Notes: a model not told the origin generated them from the letters alone. Shown: positions 5,301 through 56,825, counted from the stretch's first letter. The stretch is DNA of 64,000 nucleotides from Flavobacteriales bacterium (GCA_947449575.1 CANFRV010000008.1:1-64000), one strand, 5' to 3'. Numbers and translations are program-made.

Positions 5301-8300
5301 TGCCGTAATATCAAGAACCGTAATTGTTTGTGTCACTAAAGTCTGACCTAAGCAAATATCTGTAACAGAATAGGTGCGAGTGATTATTTCAGGACAAGTT
5401 CCGCCATCCGAAACATCCGATACAAAAGCGACCGTTGGAGTACCTTGATTATCGGCTTCATCCGTTACCACTAATGGATCTGGCAAAGGCACATCACCAA
5501 TACATTCAACATTTATGCCAACTGGATTGGAAGCTGTTGGTGAAAATGGGTCTGTAATTAATATCAAATGAGTTACATTTATAGTATTTCCGCAAGCATC
5601 AGTCACGCTGTAGATTCTGCTAATCGTTAAGGGACAAATTGCACCGTCATTAGACTCACTTACAAAAGCAACAACAGGTACTGAACAATTATCCGCCTCA
5701 TCAATTACAACGAATGGATCAACCGCTGGCGCTGGACCACCAGGAACAGTGATTGTAGCTGGATTGGAAGCTGTTGGAAGTGTTGTGTCATCAATTGTAA
5801 AAACCTGGGTAGCCGTCGTACCATTACCACATGCGTCCGTAACGGACCACGTTCTTGTTATTGTTCCTCCACAAGTCCCTCCTATCAATGATCCATCCGT
5901 TCCTACTACTACTCCTGCTGCATCGCAATTATCAGTATATCCCAAATTACTCATTAGGGGTAAATTTGCTAAACAATCAATTATCATGGATACCGGAGGA
6001 GTTGTAAATACGGGAGCAATTAAGTCATGAATTGTAATCGTTTGTGTTTGTGTTGCTGAATTACCACATGCATCGGTAAAAGTCCAAGTTCTTGTTATTA
6101 TTTCCGGACAACTTCCGCCATTTGAAACATATGTACCCGCTACAGAACCAGCAGCAGAGCAGTTATCCGTATAACCTAGATTTGTCATTGCAGGAATATC
6201 TGCTGCGCATGAAACAGTTAATGAAGCTGGAGGAATTGCAAAGACAGGAGCAATTATATCATGAACTGTAATGGTTTGTGATTGTGTTGCTGAATTACCA
6301 CATGCATCGGTAAAAGTCCAAGTTCTTGTTATTATTTCTGGACAACTTCCACCATTTGAAACATCTGTACCAGCTACCGAGCCAGCAGCAGCGCAGTTAT
6401 CCGTATACCCTAGATTTGTCATTGCAGGAATATCTGCTGCGCATGAAACAGTTACTGAAGCTGGAGGAGTTGCAAAGACAGGAGCAATTATATCATGAAC
6501 CGTGATGGTTTGTGTTTGTGTTGCTGAATTACCACACGCATCGGTAAAAGTCCAGGTTCTTGTTATTATTTCTGGACAACTTCCGCCATTTGAAACATCT
6601 GTACCAGCTACCGAACCAGCAGCAGCGCAGTTATCCGTATACCCTAGATTTGTCATTGCAGGAATATCTGCTGTACATGAAACAGTTACTGAACTAGGAG
6701 CAGATGCAAAAACAGGGGCGATAATATCATGAACCGTAATGGTTTGAGTTTTTGTTGCTGAATTACCACAAGCATCGGTATAAGTCCAGGTTCTTGTTAT
6801 TATTTCAGGACAACTTCCGCCATTTGAAACATCTGTACCAGCTACAGAACCAGCAGCAGAGCAGTTATCCGTATATCCTAGATTTGTCATTGCGGGAATA
6901 TCTGCTGCGCATGAAACAGTTACTGAAGCTGGAGCAGTCGCAAAAACAGGGGCAATAATATCATGAACCGTAATGGTTTGAGTTTTTGTTGCAGAATTAC
7001 CACACGCATCGGTAAAAGTCCAAGTTCTTGTTATTATTTCAGGACAACTTCCGCCATTTGAAACATCTGTACCAGCTACAGAACCAGCAGCAGAGCAGTT
7101 ATCGGTATATCCTAGATTTGTCATTGCAGGAATATCTGCTGCGCATGAAACCGTTACAGAACCAGGAGCTGTTGCTAAAATTGGAGCGGTAACATCTTGC
7201 ACTGTAATGGTTTGCGTAACAAATATGAAATTACCACAATCATCCGTAACTCTATATCTTCGAGCAATAAAAATAGGACAAGTTCCACTTAAAACATCAT
7301 CTTCCCATGTAACGATAGGTGCAGCACCATTATCTGTTTCATCCGTCACAACTAATGGATTTGGAGCAGAAACATTTGCAATACAATCTGAAGAAAATGG
7401 AGATGGATTAGACGCAGTTGGAGTAACTGCATCTCCAACTATTATTAATTGAGTAACAAAAATTTGATTCAGACAAAAATCAGTGACACTGTATGTCCTT
7501 GTAATTTTAGTAGGACAAAGTAAACCATCAGAAACATCACTCACAAAAGCGACTGTTGGCACAGAACAATTATCAGATTCACCAATAACAACTAACGGAT
7601 TGGATGCAGGTATAGCAGATGCTCCAGACACTGAAATCGATGCTGGATTAGATGCTGTAGGTAAAACATTATCATTAATTGTATAGGTATACACCCAAGG
7701 ATAGGTGGTTCCTGAACAATTGGTATAGGTATATGTGTATGTTTGAGTTCCTGAGCAAGTTGGGGCAGTTGAAATAACAGGTGCAGAAACTGTTAATGTT
7801 CTTCCGCAATTATCTAAAACTGTTGGAACCGTTGGGGCAACTGCTAATGCTGGACAAGATACTGTTGAGGATCCTGCTGCTGGCATTGTCACTGTTGGCG
7901 CACTGATTGTATAGGTATACACCCAAGTATAGGTGGTTCCTGAACAATTGGTAAAGGTATAAGTATATGTTTGAGTTCCTGAACATGTTGGTGCAGTTGA
8001 AATAACGGGAGCTGAAACGGTCAATGTTCTTCCGCAGTTATCTAAAACTGTTGGAACTGTTGGTGCAACTGCTAATGCTGGACAAGATACCGTTGAAGAA
8101 CCTGCCGCGGGCATTGTTACAGTTGGCGCACTGATTGTATACGTATACACCCAAGGATAAGTGGTTCCCGAACAACTTGTATAGGTAAATGTGTATGTTT
8201 GAGTTCCTGAACATGCTGGTGCAGTTGAAATAACAGGAGCTGAAACGGTCAATGTTCTTCCGCAGTTATCTAGAACGGTTGGAACTGTTGGGGCAACTGC

Positions 8301-38976: not shown

Positions 38977-40296
38977 ATGAAAAAACGAATAAAATACATT
39001 ATTGCATTTTGGATCTTTTTCTTTCTGATTCTTTTTTCTATGGGAATTACTCGGAATGTAATGCAAAATGGATCTATTAAAGGAACTTCTCGAGAAATAG
39101 TGCTTTTTCTTTCTTCGTTCTTATCGAACGTAGTGAATTATTCTAAAATAAATACACAAATGATAGTTGAGAGTAATTTGAAGCTTAAAAATGGCTTTAA
39201 TAGATCTAACAACTATACTGCAAGTAAAGATTACCTTCTTGTTTCTGTATGGGATGATTCTTTGGGTCAGTCTATCGTGAAATTGGTGCGAATTGCTGAT
39301 GGGGTTATTCTGCATAAATGGGTTGTCAATATCGATGAGTTAAATGACATATACAATACTTCATCAACAAATGGTGAAAAGCATTGTTTAACTAAAAATA
39401 CAACGAGCATGCAGCATCCAATTTTGCTGAATGATGGTTCCCTGGTCTTTGGATCTGGAGGTATTTTTAAAGTAGATAAAAATTCAAAACTAATTTGGTC
39501 GAACAAAAATAAAAACACACACTCTATTGAAGTATCCAATGAAGGCGATTATTGGATTTGCGGATACAATCGTTCGATAAAAAATCAAAAAAAATACCTA
39601 ATTAAAGATGATGCAATTCAAAAAGTATCAGCAAAAACGGGTAAAATTATTTTTGAAAAATCGGTCTTTGAAATTTTGATGGAAAATGGTTATGGAATGG
39701 CTAATTTTTTCGTGAATTCTGAGTTTTCTTCTCAAATAACCTACGCAGACTTCATTCACTTAAATGATATTCAACCTGCCTTATTCGATGGTAAATATTG
39801 GAAAAAAGATGACTTATTTTTAAGTTTAAGAAACCAAAATTTGATTGTACAATATCGACCTTCAATAAATAAGATCATTTGGTCAAAAAAAGGGCCTTGG
39901 TTGAAACAGCATGACGTAGATATTATAGATTCAAACAGTATAAGTATTTTCGGAAATAACGTAATTGATGCTCAATTTGATAAAAAAGAGAAAAAATTAG
40001 TAGACGGGTACAATAATTTATACGTCATTAATTTTGAAACAAATTCATGCACAACTCCTTACACTGATTTTTTTAAAAGTTCGAAAATCGCTACCTATAC
40101 GGAAGGTCTATCCACAATTCTTGATAATGGCAACGTTTTCATTGAAGAAACGAACAATGGTAGACTTCTCTTTGGAAATAAAAATAAAGAAATTTGGTCC
40201 TATATTGAGCGTATCGATGAAACTAAATTGAGCATTTTCAATTGGAGCAGATATATTACTGAAAAGGAATTCAAAAATTTAACTTTTTTAAAATAA
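38977..40296 (+). CDS. Membrane-anchored arylsulfotransferase-like propeller protein (paralogue 1)
   Basis: This 439-residue protein has an uncleaved N-terminal anchor (KKRIKYIIAFWIFFFLILFSMGI) and a periplasmic domain resembling the arylsulfotransferase (ASST) family. Three histidines are conserved with its paralogue at 53783 and sit in ASST-like motifs: His182 in HSIE, His261 in HLNDIQP and His312 in QHDVDI. DLFLSLRNQN and IIWSKKGPWL motifs are shared too. ASST enzymes move sulfate between phenolic compounds through a sulfo-histidine. Whether this one is catalytic is unknown. It is not next to a sulfotransferase, unlike paralogue 2, and converges on the MacB permease gene. Confidence 0.78.
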   Translation: MKKRIKYIIAFWIFFFLILFSMGITRNVMQNGSIKGTSREIVLFLSSFLSNVVNYSKINTQMIVESNLKLKNGFNRSNNYTASKDYLLVSVWDDSLGQSIVKLVRIADGVILHKWVVNIDELNDIYNTSSTNGEKHCLTKNTTSMQHPILLNDGSLVFGSGGIFKVDKNSKLIWSNKNKNTHSIEVSNEGDYWICGYNRSIKNQKKYLIKDDAIQKVSAKTGKIIFEKSVFEILMENGYGMANFFVNSEFSSQITYADFIHLNDIQPALFDGKYWKKDDLFLSLRNQNLIVQYRPSINKIIWSKKGPWLKQHDVDIIDSNSISIFGNNVIDAQFDKKEKKLVDGYNNLYVINFETNSCTTPYTDFFKSSKIATYTEGLSTILDNGNVFIEETNNGRLLFGNKNKEIWSYIERIDETKLSIFNWSRYITEKEFKNLTFLK

Positions 40297-52373: not shown

Positions 52374-53720
52374 ATGAAAAAAACATTGATTTTATTGATT
52401 TTATTTATTCAATGCTTCACAAACTTTCGTGCACAAGATTCAATCACTAAGGATTCTATTAAACTGCCCTTTGCTATTAGTTCCGAAAAAAAATTATCGG
52501 ATGAAGACTTGGCTAACAAAAAAGAAGGCACATATATCACGGGAGTTCCTGATTTGAGTTCTGATCCTGTCAATGGTTTTGGTTATGGAGTGGAAGGTTC
52601 TATCTATTTTAACGGAAAAAAATCTGACCCTTTTTTCAAATACACGGCCTACCGAGCAAAACTTGACGTGGCACTCTTCAATACCACCAAAGCACAGCGA
52701 GAGATCATGGTTATTTGTGACATTCCCTATATATTAAATACAAAATGGCGCATGCGAGGTGAATTAGCATTCGAAGTCAACCCCAACTTATTGTATTTCG
52801 GAATCAATCAACAAACCACTTTAGCAGGCTTGAGTTATTACCCGGCTAATGATCTATCTCAAAAACCTGTCACTAATTCCTCTTTTGATGCTTATCAGAA
52901 TTCTTTAATTGGTGACAATAAAAATTACTTAAATTTCACTAAAAAAGAAGCTGTCATCAATGTGAGTATGGAAAGATCTTATATGGAAGGACGTCTCCGG
53001 GCATTAATTGGATATGAATATGCCAATCTTACTCTGACTCCCTTCGCAGGAAATTCTTTTTTGCAAAATGATTTTAATAAAGGACTTATCACAGGTGTTG
53101 GTAGAAATTCAGTGTCATTCGTTCAGGTTGGATTAATCTATGATACTCGGGATTTAGAAACAGATCCTTCTCAAGGGTTTTTCGCTGAGTTGACCAATGA
53201 AGTTTCACTAAAAGCTTTGGGGTCTCAATTCGATTTCAATAAAACGTTTGGTCATGTAAATTACTACCATAAATTATTTCCATCTATTTTTAAAAAATTA
53301 GTGATTGCAGGAAGAATAGCTGCAGGATACACGGCTGGGAATTCTCCTTTTTATGAATATCACGATCAATGGAGTTCAGAAGGAAGTATTGAAGGATTGG
53401 GCGGAGGCGTTACGTTAAGAGGTTTTAAGCAAAGTAGATTTGTTTCTCGCTTAACACAATGGAATAATTTTGAATTACGTTATCGATTTGCTCAATTCAC
53501 ACTTATGAAGCAACATTTTGCTTTGAGTGCTGTTCCATTTTTTGACTTCGGAGGTGTTTGGGATACTGGTAAGAATTTCACAAAACAATTTAACAACTAC
53601 CGCTGCGACGAAGGTGCTGGTTTAAGAATTGCATGGAATGTAAATACTATTTTACGTTTTGATTATGCTATTTCCAAAGAGGACAAACAATTTTTCTTTT
53701 CGTTAGCTCACACATTTTAG
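52374..53720 (+). CDS. Omp85-like (surface antigen D15) outer-membrane barrel protein
   Basis: The 448 residues start with a signal peptide (KKTLILLILFIQCFTNFRAQ). No POTRA domains are evident. The barrel half shows VGLIYDTRDLETDPSQGFF and the LRGFKQSRF motif, which matches the (V/L)RGF L6 signature of Omp85 barrels. It ends with F as the last residue (FFFSLAHTF), a typical outer-membrane protein ending. Related proteins are annotated as BamA/TamA-like barrels, but without POTRA domains the role is unclear. Confidence 0.85.
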   Translation: MKKTLILLILFIQCFTNFRAQDSITKDSIKLPFAISSEKKLSDEDLANKKEGTYITGVPDLSSDPVNGFGYGVEGSIYFNGKKSDPFFKYTAYRAKLDVALFNTTKAQREIMVICDIPYILNTKWRMRGELAFEVNPNLLYFGINQQTTLAGLSYYPANDLSQKPVTNSSFDAYQNSLIGDNKNYLNFTKKEAVINVSMERSYMEGRLRALIGYEYANLTLTPFAGNSFLQNDFNKGLITGVGRNSVSFVQVGLIYDTRDLETDPSQGFFAELTNEVSLKALGSQFDFNKTFGHVNYYHKLFPSIFKKLVIAGRIAAGYTAGNSPFYEYHDQWSSEGSIEGLGGGVTLRGFKQSRFVSRLTQWNNFELRYRFAQFTLMKQHFALSAVPFFDFGGVWDTGKNFTKQFNNYRCDEGAGLRIAWNVNTILRFDYAISKEDKQFFFSLAHTF

Positions 53721-53782: not shown

Positions 53783-55078
53783 ATGAAGAAAATTATTAAA
53801 TATCTAATTTTTTTCTGGGTGTTCTTTTTTATTTTGGTCTTCTTTATGGGGGCTACAAGATATGTATTACTGAACAGCACCCGGATGGACGGATATCCGA
53901 AGAAAGCAATCATTTTTCTATCTACATTTTTATCGAATATTTATGATTACGATGAATTGACAAAACCTTTAGAGATAAACAGTACTTTAAAATTACACAA
54001 TGGATTTAACTATTCTAACTACTACAAAAAAAGTAACGATTATGTCCTTGTTTCCAGTTGGGATCACCTGTTAGAGCAATCTATTGTAAAATTAGTACGA
54101 ATTAGAGATGGCGCTATTATGCATAAATGGGTAGTTGATATCGACCAAATAAATCAAGCACATCTTTCACGAAATTCGATTAAATTAATGCATCCGTCTT
54201 TATTTTCTGATGGTTCTCTGCTTTTTGGATCGGAGAATCTCTACAAAGTGAATAAAGACTCAAAAATTGTTTGGTGGAGTGATGCTTATTGTCATCATTC
54301 AATTGAAAAAGGAATTGGAAATAATTATTGGTTTTGTAGTTTTAACAGTTCCACCAAAAATGCGAAAAAATACCAAATTGTGGATGATGTAATCAAAGAA
54401 GTTTCTGCAATAACAGGTAAAATTTTATTTGAAAAATCAGTTTTTGAGATTTTAATGGCGAATGGATATGGAAGAGGTAACTTTTTTATCAATGCGGAAG
54501 AAAATCCTATTTCCACTGCTATGGATTATGTCCATTTAAATGATATTCAACCGGTATTAACGGATTCAAAGTACTGGAAGAAAGGAGATTTATTTTTGAG
54601 TCTAAGGAATCAAAATATGGTCATGCTGTATCGTCCTTCTACCAACAAAATTATTTGGTCACAAAATGGGCCTTGGTTGCGCCAACATGATGTTGACATT
54701 CTTGATTCTACACGAATTGGTATCTTTGGTAATAATGTAATTGACCCTCAAAACTCAGATAAAACAGGGGTTTTAATTGATGGACATAATAATCAATACA
54801 TTTATGATTTCTCCAAAAATCTAATTACAACACCCTACGAACAATTATTTAAATCATCTAAGATTGGCACGATTTCAGAAGGTTTATCGAGAATATTGGA
54901 GGATGGAACCATTTTTATTGAAGAAACAAACCAAGGCAGAATTGTCTTTGGAGACCAAAACCACGAAATGTGGTCATATATTGATCGCATTGATAAAAAC
55001 AAAGTTAGCCGTTTAAGTTGGTCTACCTATATCACAGAAAGTGAATTTAAAACACTTGATTTCATTAAGAAAAAGTAA
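53783..55078 (+). CDS. Membrane-anchored arylsulfotransferase-like propeller protein (paralogue 2)
   Basis: This 431-residue protein is clearly homologous along its full length to the protein at 38977. The N-terminal anchor (KKIIKYLIFFWVFFFILVFFMGAT), the HPSLFSDGSLLFGSENLYKV region and the three histidine motifs HSIE, HLNDIQP and QHDVDI are all kept. It differs from paralogue 1 mainly in a shorter loop near residue 130. It has its own promoter and is followed, 154 bp later, by three tightly packed genes including a P-loop sulfotransferase. This suggests a sulfate-transfer role in the periplasm. Catalytic activity is not shown by sequence alone. Confidence 0.8.
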   Translation: MKKIIKYLIFFWVFFFILVFFMGATRYVLLNSTRMDGYPKKAIIFLSTFLSNIYDYDELTKPLEINSTLKLHNGFNYSNYYKKSNDYVLVSSWDHLLEQSIVKLVRIRDGAIMHKWVVDIDQINQAHLSRNSIKLMHPSLFSDGSLLFGSENLYKVNKDSKIVWWSDAYCHHSIEKGIGNNYWFCSFNSSTKNAKKYQIVDDVIKEVSAITGKILFEKSVFEILMANGYGRGNFFINAEENPISTAMDYVHLNDIQPVLTDSKYWKKGDLFLSLRNQNMVMLYRPSTNKIIWSQNGPWLRQHDVDILDSTRIGIFGNNVIDPQNSDKTGVLIDGHNNQYIYDFSKNLITTPYEQLFKSSKIGTISEGLSRILEDGTIFIEETNQGRIVFGDQNHEMWSYIDRIDKNKVSRLSWSTYITESEFKTLDFIKKK

Positions 55079-55207
55079 TTTCAAGCTGGATTATTTCTAT
55101 ATTATTTCTGCGACAAATAATTCTTGCGCGAGATAAACAGCAAATGAAAAAATCCACAATAAATCGTATTTACTATACTAATTCTTACCCAACAAGAAAT
55201 TAAAATC

Positions 55208-55227
55208 TTACTTTTATAAAAAAGTAA
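55208..55227. promoter_or_regulatory. Inverted repeat just before the 59-residue gene
   Basis: TTACTTTT at 55208-55215 is the exact reverse complement of AAAAGTAA at 55220-55227, with a 4-base spacer. It lies 5 bases before the ATG at 55233. It could be an operator or an RNA hairpin at the ribosome entry site. The composition is low-complexity, so chance is possible. Confidence 0.35.
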
Positions 55228-55232
55228 CACCA

Positions 55233-55412
55233 ATGGATGCATTATTAATAAAATTCGCAAGTATACCCATATATATTGGGCCGGGACTTGGAGGAGGAAC
55301 AATCCTTGCAATTTTAGGAATATTAACTTCATTTTTCTTGTCCTTAATAGCTATTTTTTGGTATCCGTTAAAAAGACTATTTAGATTTTTAAAATCCAAA
55401 TTCAAGAAATAA
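55233..55412 (+). CDS. Short membrane protein (59 residues) in the sulfotransferase operon
   Basis: Reading from the ATG at 55233 to the TAA at 55410 gives 59 residues: an N-terminal amphipathic part (MDALLIKFASIPIYI), a GPGLGGG turn, a hydrophobic helix (TILAILGILTSFFLSLIAIFW), then a basic tail (YPLKRLFRFLKSKFKK). The gene is 2 bp from the following ORF. Together with the strong helix-plus-basic-tail pattern this makes it a convincing small gene. A GPG(L/I)GGG-helix-basic arrangement resembles small proteins I associate with such clusters, but no function is known. Confidence 0.75.
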   Translation: MDALLIKFASIPIYIGPGLGGGTILAILGILTSFFLSLIAIFWYPLKRLFRFLKSKFKK

Positions 55413-55414
55413 GT

Positions 55415-55795
55415 ATGGATCTTTTTATTGTGTTAATTTTCAGCTTTTTTACCGCTTTTTTGTTTGATTTTTTATCGATTTTCAAAGCGAGTAAGTACTT
55501 ATTTACGATACAAAAAGAATCATTCAAGGTTATTTCCGATAAACAATTAACAGATGATCAAAAGCAGAAAGCGCTGTTATCGTATACTTCAAAGATTTTT
55601 CTGACTTCCTTAAAATTGCTTTTTTTCTTCCTACTTGTGCTAAGTCCATTTACATTCCTTGTTTTGTATGGACACAATTATACTACTACTGATTTTTATG
55701 GTGTTTTAACGTCACTATATGGGATGTTAATTACTGCTGTTTCATTTCTGATTTACTTTTCTATTAAGAAGAAATATGGAAGAAAACAGCTATAA
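55415..55795 (+). CDS. Membrane protein of unknown function in the sulfotransferase operon
   Basis: This 126-residue protein has three predicted membrane helices (about residues 2-22, 60-84 and 95-117) and a charged loop between the first two (DKQLTDDQKQKALLSY). It begins 2 bp after the 59-residue gene and overlaps the sulfotransferase start by 20 bp, so translation is probably coupled. No catalytic motif is visible. It may be a membrane partner that recruits the sulfotransferase or moves its product, which is inference from order. Confidence 0.75.
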   Translation: MDLFIVLIFSFFTAFLFDFLSIFKASKYLFTIQKESFKVISDKQLTDDQKQKALLSYTSKIFLTSLKLLFFFLLVLSPFTFLVLYGHNYTTTDFYGVLTSLYGMLITAVSFLIYFSIKKKYGRKQL

Positions 55796-56825
55796 TTTTC
55801 TTTCAAAATTACTTCATAAAATCAGTCTTGGGTCGAAGTCTGTTTCTGAAATGAGTTTTGAAATTGAAAAAGTACTTTATCTAAAAAAAACGAAGCATAA
55901 TGTAGCAGAAAACCATCTTTTCATTAGTGGTTTAGCTAGAAGTGGTACGACGGCCTTCCTGAATCTTCTTCATGAAACCAATCAATTTTCGTCATTAACC
56001 TATGAAGTTATGCCTTTTATACTTGCTCCCAATTTTGGAGGAAAGTTTTCTAAAAGAAAAACGGGCAAAGCATTAAAAAAGAAGGAACGATCACATAAAG
56101 ATGGTATTTTAATCAATAATGAAAGTCCTGAAGCGTTGGATGAAGTATTCTGGAAAGTCTTTTTAGATGATACATACATTCAAAAAGATCGCTTGGTGAT
56201 TCATGAAATTGGTCTCGAAAACAAAACTCGCTATAGCCAATATATTGATATGATTGTTTTAAAGCATAGTGAAAAAGCAGGAAATAGATATCTCTCAAAA
56301 AACAATAATTCAATTTTGCGCTTATCTTCTCTTTTACAAAATTTCCCAAAAGCTACCGTAGTCATTCCTTTCAGAAACCCTTTACAGCATGCACTTTCAC
56401 TGTTAAATCAGCATCAACATTTTTGTAAACTTCAAACAGAAAATCCATTTACCTTGAAATATATGAATTGGATCGGGCATCATGAATTTGGATTAAATCA
56501 AAAACCATTTTACTTGGGAAATGATTCTGTATTCAACCAATTATTGGAGACTAGTAAAGAAGATATCAATTATTGGTTACTAACTTGGTTAAATTATTAC
56601 ACGTATGTTTACGAGCACTTTATGGATTCCTGTGTGCTTTTTTCATATGAGAAATTTTCTGAAGAACCTACGAACTACATCCAGGAAATTTCAAAAAAAA
56701 TTGGGCTACAAGATATACAATTTGAACTAAAATCATTTCTTTCCAAAGAAAGAAAATGTGATGGCGTTAATGAAGATTTACTAAGAAAGTGCACTGAAAT
56801 TTACGAAAAATTAAATCACCATTGA
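55776..56825 (+). CDS. P-loop (PAPS-type) sulfotransferase
   Basis: This 349-residue cytoplasmic protein has the 5'-phosphosulfate-binding loop ISGLARSGTTAFLNLL (~residues 50-65) and a 3'-phosphate-binding segment VVIPFRNPLQHALSLL near residue 200. These define PAPS-dependent sulfotransferases. The acceptor is not predictable: carbohydrate, lipid or a small molecule. Its location with two small membrane proteins and an arylsulfotransferase-like membrane protein suggests a two-stage sulfation route from PAPS to an exported acceptor. It converges on hutH. Confidence 0.85.
   Translation: MEENSYNFLSKLLHKISLGSKSVSEMSFEIEKVLYLKKTKHNVAENHLFISGLARSGTTAFLNLLHETNQFSSLTYEVMPFILAPNFGGKFSKRKTGKALKKKERSHKDGILINNESPEALDEVFWKVFLDDTYIQKDRLVIHEIGLENKTRYSQYIDMIVLKHSEKAGNRYLSKNNNSILRLSSLLQNFPKATVVIPFRNPLQHALSLLNQHQHFCKLQTENPFTLKYMNWIGHHEFGLNQKPFYLGNDSVFNQLLETSKEDINYWLLTWLNYYTYVYEHFMDSCVLFSYEKFSEEPTNYIQEISKKIGLQDIQFELKSFLSKERKCDGVNEDLLRKCTEIYEKLNHH

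Follow-up and report, generated by a model that had tools for sequence, protein, structure and literature searches.

A Conserved Four-Gene Unit of Bacteroidota and Alphaproteobacteria as a Candidate Membrane-Bound Two-Step Sulfation Relay

Introduction

A compact cluster of four genes, which encode an arylsulfotransferase-like protein (ASST), two small membrane proteins (S59 and S126), and a P-loop sulfotransferase (SULT), is a real and conserved unit found in two bacterial phyla, and we propose, with a probability of roughly 55%, that it forms a membrane-bound two-step sulfation relay, in which a sulfated carrier would be made inside the cell and its sulfate passed on outside. The cluster was recognized in the window, namely the whole stretch of 64,000 nucleotides from a Flavobacteriales bacterium that was analyzed here. 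Artificial aryl sulfates have served as substrates in studies of periplasmic ASSTs. PAPS is a cytoplasmic cofactor, which raises the question of how sulfate reaches the enzymes that transfer it outside the membrane. The natural substrates and physiological roles of the periplasmic ASSTs are described in a 2026 review as unidentified or poorly understood (PMC13426309). The relay, if true, could explain where outside-acting bacterial sulfotransferases obtain their sulfate, and the compactness of the unit, which in two phyla combines a PAPS sulfotransferase and its own probable anchor with an ASST and one more small membrane protein, makes the question of sulfate delivery testable in four genes.

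Organization of the Cluster

The genes under discussion, including a second ASST copy located about 13 kb from the cluster, are as follows:

38977–40296, plus strand: ASST2, second ASST copy, 439 aa
53783–55078, plus strand: ASST, 431 aa; PF14269 (Arylsulfotran_2), E 3e-35, above cut-off
55233–55412, plus strand: S59, small membrane protein, 59 aa; no match above cut-off in Pfam or NCBIfam
55415–55795, plus strand: S126, three-TM protein, 126 aa; no match above cut-off in Pfam or NCBIfam
55776–56825, plus strand: SULT, 349 aa; PF13469 (Sulfotransfer_3), E 1e-11, above cut-off

The open reading frames of the window place S59 and S126 2 bp apart and give S126 and SULT an overlap of 20 bp, in agreement to the base with the initial annotation of this DNA. 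The overlap measures 20–23 bp in the relatives examined, and this conservation is consistent with translational coupling of the two genes. Between ASST and S59 the window has a gap of 154 bp; in most relatives this distance is about 20 bp or less, or is replaced by a short overlap, so that all four genes are usually tightly packed. By hydropathy, ASST has a single predicted N-terminal TM segment, S59 has one segment and S126 has three, and SULT lacks any, which bears out the earlier description of a membrane-anchored ASST-like protein followed by two membrane proteins, just as the two Pfam assignments uphold the ASST-like and P-loop sulfotransferase identities proposed there. Searches of S59 and S126 against Pfam and NCBIfam gave sub-threshold matches only (for instance ABHD16_N for S126 and CysZ/EI24 for S59), and these identities were dropped.

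The Arylsulfotransferase and Its Second Copy

The AF2 model of ASST (pLDDT 77) aligns over about 310 residues with Cpz4 (VIA-align Z 24.0) and with the E. coli ASST 3ELQ (Z 22.3), propellers other than ASSTs scoring Z 19.4 and below. Cpz4 is the nearest solved structure by profile as well as by fold: a profile of 16 divergent ASST members reaches it at E 3e-14, with the DxxHxN, SxR, and QHD motifs aligned, a PDB sequence search with a narrow alignment yields a marginal match to it (E 0.5), and a PDB search with the single ASST sequence did not find it. The 16 divergent ASSTs, among them both copies of the window, share nine invariant residues: H172, D248, H251, N253, S273, R275, Q301, H302, and N317. 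Of these, H172, H251, N253, R275, and H302 make up the putative catalytic set. The active site of E. coli ASST consists of His252, His356, Asn358, Arg374, Thr501, and the sulfated His436 (PMC13426309); the order H172, H251-x-N253, R275, H302 reproduces that of His252, His356-x-Asn358, Arg374, His436, the correspondence being one of motif order and spacing and not of superposed residues. Since the residue order and the H-x-N spacing agree with those of the E. coli enzyme, H302 is the expected nucleophile and would be the residue that forms the sulfo-histidine. The initial annotation had made its proposal depend on the catalytic histidine geometry; the model and the alignment retain the histidines of the catalytic set as well as the propeller fold of the ASSTs. 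ASST is presumably, then, a periplasmic, PAPS-independent sulfotransferase-like beta-propeller that is anchored by its N-terminal TM segment.

ASST2, which the initial annotation overlooked, shares 56–58% identity with the cluster copy and keeps the catalytic residues. The relative G002 (L001) has two ASST copies about 2 kb apart, and the single ASST of the locus L003 is 55% identical to ASST2 versus 51% to the cluster copy and occupies the same position as ASST2, following TonB-system genes. This spacing, together with the likeness and shared position, indicates that the pair probably arose by duplication and was later separated by inserted genes.

The Two Small Membrane Proteins and the PAPS Sulfotransferase

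S59 is characterized by an invariant Y-x-GPG motif at the start of its hydrophobic core, the Tyr being invariant in 16 aligned sequences, and by a basic tail that follows W-x-P-x-[KR]. Outside the window's genus, the protein begins with a signal-peptide-like segment ending in AxA just before this Tyr, which suggests an N-out, C-in topology; the window's genus lacks the AxA site, and no N-terminal Tyr is predicted there. Elsewhere in the Bacteroidota the S59 profile has weak matches (E about 1e-4 to 1e-3), which were taken as chance, the partner genes being absent from the two loci checked (L057 and L058).

S126 has a conserved [TS]D..K[EQ] loop and is fused in frame to SULT in two separate settings, namely in the Bacteroidota genus g99 (L044) and in the Alphaproteobacteria (L064 and L065). 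Because of these three fusions, S126 is taken to be a partner of SULT and, most likely, the protein that anchors it in the membrane. The earlier suggestion that both small membrane proteins might present or move a substrate is modified accordingly: S126 looks more like an anchor, and the suggestion survives as a possible role for S59.

SULT displays a GLARSGTT 5'-PSB motif and a 3'-phosphate motif with R200 and S208; R55, G57, T59, R200, and S208 are invariant in 15 SULT sequences. Its model is of only moderate quality (pLDDT 67), and its best Foldseek matches are PAPS sulfotransferases. Together with the PF13469 assignment, these features place SULT among the PAPS-dependent P-loop sulfotransferases.

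Distribution and Coinheritance

The genus of the window was sampled with 12 genomes (G000–G011), its own included. Nine of them carry ASST, and in all nine (the window, L001, and L003–L009) the tblastn matches to S59, S126, and SULT follow immediately after it; the loci L002 and L010 end at contig edges. Across 395 Bacteroidota genomes the SULT profile matches seven, comprising the window's genome, four genomes of the genus g147, and two of the genus g99, both genera being distant from that of the window; the g99 genome G257 holds a SULT remnant, as a fragment only. The four-gene unit is present in g99 (L044) and g147 (L045, L046, and L048), and within g147, where 8 of the 13 genomes have SULT, all partners also occur in L105, L108, and L109, with ASST placed downstream in L108.

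Outside the Bacteroidota, a tblastn search of PLSDB, the plasmid records to which the alphaproteobacterial survey was confined, located SULT on seven plasmids, all of them alphaproteobacterial (from Sagittula, Rhodobacter, Novosphingobium, Paroceanicella, Paracoccus, and Tateyamaria), and ASST belongs to the cluster on all seven. Four plasmids (L063, L066, L068, and L069) have the gene order of the window, two (L064 and L065) have S59 followed by the fused S126-SULT and then ASST, and one (L067) has no recognizable S59; in SC52, neither motif nor tblastn searches found S59. Complete loci number about 22 in all, distributed over three Bacteroidota genera and six alphaproteobacterial genera. The conserved neighborhood and the co-occurrence of the four families in this order, which the initial annotation had put forward as the tests of its idea, are thus borne out in other Bacteroidota and in a second phylum. 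Incomplete versions also occur: G458 has S59, S126, and SULT, with no ASST found within about 9 kb on either side, and G203 has a deletion that runs from inside ASST, through S59, to the start of S126. Among viral contigs, no confirmed SULT relative was found.

PF14269 is present in 83 of the 395 Bacteroidota genomes versus seven for SULT, and an ASST alone is therefore not unusual; in 30 ASST loci with flanks, matches to S59, S126, and SULT were seen only beside the cluster-type ASST. Over 16 loci, the distance matrix of each family correlates with those of the other three at r 0.85–0.91, a level reached by 0 of 5000 permutations, the S126 values being approximate owing to an out-of-frame S126 row for L046; the four families have therefore travelled together. 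In the open-access literature searched, no account of this four-gene arrangement came to light, in line with the initial annotation, which knew of no such system.

PAPS Supply

The gene for APS kinase is often a close neighbor: it overlaps the start of ASST in L003 and L004, is convergent on the end of SULT in L006–L009, and lies directly downstream of SULT in L044. Within the genus, APS kinase is present in 9/9 genomes with the cluster versus 0/3 without it, G011 having only a partial fragment of 39 aa (Fisher p 0.0045, uncorrected for relatedness). CysD is general in the genus, being present in 10 of the 12 genomes, among them the window's own; together, the two enzymes cover PAPS supply in the host. 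The APS kinase gene of the window's genome is found away from the cluster, at a locus with other sulfotransferases, and the PAPS supply is therefore shared beyond the cluster.

Proposed Relay and Alternative Readings

In the relay that we propose, PAPS would be made in the cytoplasm by ATP sulfurylase and APS kinase, and SULT, held by S126 at the inner face of the membrane, would use it to sulfate a lipophilic phenolic carrier, giving a high-energy aryl sulfate. The sulfated carrier would then be flipped to the outer face, perhaps with the aid of S59, whose one TM segment is combined with a putatively N-out GPG motif. There the membrane-anchored periplasmic ASST could take the sulfate onto H302 and transfer it to a hydroxyl group on some component of the envelope; a surface glycan or glycolipid is the most likely acceptor. 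This membrane relay is favored because the enzyme types are those of Cpz8 and Cpz4, because Cpz4 is the solved structure nearest to ASST, and because the unit is built into the membrane. The idea of the initial annotation, in which a PAPS-dependent reaction in the cytoplasm supplies an ASST reaction in the periplasm, is the best-supported reading, with a soluble precedent in Cpz8/Cpz4 (PMC6731281, PMC4257720).

As for the carrier, no carrier-making gene was found in the conserved core of the cluster, and type III PKS (PF00195) is absent from all 12 genomes of the genus, which makes a housekeeping aromatic such as a quinol plausible as the putative carrier; in the window's genus this could be an aromatic lipid, for example menaquinol. 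Two g147 genomes encode a type III PKS elsewhere, so the carrier could differ between lineages. As for the acceptor, the cluster of L044 lies inside a surface-glycan locus, with heptose-activation genes on one side and a GDP-mannose 4,6-dehydratase gene on the other, and glycosyltransferases or an O-antigen ligase are encoded near the clusters of the plasmids L063, L065, and L067. These neighbors suggest that the acceptor is probably a glycan, although the glycan genes beside the plasmid clusters could be a coincidence. A tentative generalization, which we regard as possible, is that the unit serves sulfate translocation at large: the anchored SULT would load sulfate from PAPS onto a housekeeping quinol or similar lipid, S59 would aid its crossing, and ASST would sulfate the surface, in a logic resembling that of the lipid-phosphate sugar carriers.

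The same glycan loci would also suit two independent sulfations of one envelope polymer with no shared carrier, the anchored PAPS enzyme acting on a cytoplasmic lipid-linked precursor and ASST acting at another position, in the periplasm, with environmental aryl sulfates. Each of the two enzymes comes from an independently competent family, and E. coli ASST accepts free aryl sulfates as donors in vitro (PMC13426309). Dependent steps are nevertheless suggested by the coinheritance of four families over two phyla, their congruent divergence, and their near-constant adjacency; moreover, many ASSTs stand alone, so that those with these partners form a group apart. We therefore consider independent sulfations unlikely.

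Somewhat less likely again is an arrangement in which the product of SULT is itself the final envelope lipid, for instance a sulfated quinol like mycobacterial S881, and in which ASST runs in reverse, removing or relocating sulfate outside for recycling or detoxification. Sulfated menaquinone is known from M. tuberculosis (PMC3141025), and the ping-pong chemistry of ASSTs via sulfo-histidine (PMC13426309) would suit such a reversal, but ASST keeps the full catalytic set for transfer, its histidine included, no sulfatase was found beside the cluster in the loci examined, and an acceptor is suggested by the glycan loci that surround several of the clusters.

It is improbable that S59 itself is the sulfate carrier or acceptor, with its invariant Tyr, the predicted mature N-terminus in most lineages, being sulfated by ASST, or by SULT before export. 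The position of this Tyr right after the AxA cleavage-like site in the signal-peptide versions is what such a role would call for, Tyr-containing peptides are among the ASST acceptors tested in vitro (PMC13426309), and protein-tyrosine sulfotransferases are among the best PDB matches of the SULT profile; these matches are, however, marginal (E 0.003), the fold matches many sulfotransferases alike, the window's genus departs from the AxA arrangement, and a single-use carrier would be wasteful. Inside the window's genus, synteny alone could hold neighbors together, and an adjacency that is accidental or merely regional, without any shared function, would suffice there. The loci across phyla contradict this reading: the order is the same in different contexts, both in two further Bacteroidota genera and on plasmids of a second phylum, S126 and SULT are fused in three loci, and the overlaps are conserved. 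We give it almost no credence.

Comparison with Known Systems

The proposed membrane relay has partial counterparts in three known systems. The mycobacterial Stf3/S881 system is an earlier example of a sulfated aromatic envelope lipid that bacteria produce by way of a PAPS sulfotransferase; unlike the present unit, it has no ASST partner recorded in the account consulted (PMC3141025). E. coli AssT (3ELQ; PF05935) shares with the window's ASST the beta-propeller (Z 22.3) and a matching residue order, whereas the latter belongs to PF14269 and has an N-terminal TM anchor and a PAPS sulfotransferase partner. The closest parallel is the caprazamycin pathway of Streptomyces, in which the PAPS enzyme Cpz8 loads sulfate onto a phenolic carrier and the PAPS-independent Cpz4 then sulfates the product (PMC6731281, PMC4257720): there a PAPS enzyme and a PAPS-independent propeller enzyme work in series, as is proposed for the present unit, and here the two enzyme types are co-encoded in about 22 loci. 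Filing the cluster as a caprazamycin-type system was rejected, however, as the PKS for that carrier, a triketide pyrone used for an antibiotic, is absent from the window's genus. The unit described here differs further in that SULT comes with a membrane protein, sometimes fused to it, in that nearly every locus has another small membrane protein as well, and in its occurrence in Bacteroidota and Alphaproteobacteria. Its chemistry belongs to a type already known; the membrane-bound arrangement is new.

Copies and remnants of genes in and around the cluster

The arylsulfotransferase-like gene (ASST) is present in two copies both in the window and in L001, a locus of the congeneric genome G002, at the following positions, which are listed with the DUF5982/Omp85 gene of the window:

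Window 38977-40296: second ASST copy
Window 53783-55078: ASST of the four-gene cluster
L001 2629-3948: ASST copy
L001 6004-7299: ASST copy
Window 52374-53720: DUF5982/Omp85 gene

The spacing between the two copies is ~13 kb in the window, where they are separated by genes of an efflux system, by two-component genes, and by a gene of the Omp85 family, versus ~2 kb in G002. Compared with the DUF5982/Omp85 gene of the window, L001 retains a scar (5806-5938) that lacks the middle of the gene and keeps both of its ends within ~130 bp. In G010, also of this genus, a second ASST-S59 start is found at the end of contig C55 (L050 6379-7831), with the complete cluster residing on another contig, and this start is likely a second copy of the four-gene unit.

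In G203 (L047 7900-8700), a deletion fuses the N-terminal part of ASST in frame to a point just before S126, the sulfotransferase gene being intact. Toward its C-terminal end, the ASST reading frame of the distant Bacteroidota genome G255 (L048 5923-7152) departs from that of related genes in a manner resembling a frameshift, either real or due to assembly error.

A RiPP-like locus in the source genome

L112 4669-19437 (G000:C2 ~122.7-137.4 kb): RiPP-like locus

This locus of the window's own genome contains two sulfotransferases and an APS kinase, together with genes whose identities were assigned by eye, namely PqqD-like, transglutaminase-like, asparagine-synthetase-like, and nucleotidyltransferase-like genes, a halogenase-like FAD enzyme, and an ABC transporter; it resembles a gene cluster for a lasso peptide or another RiPP.
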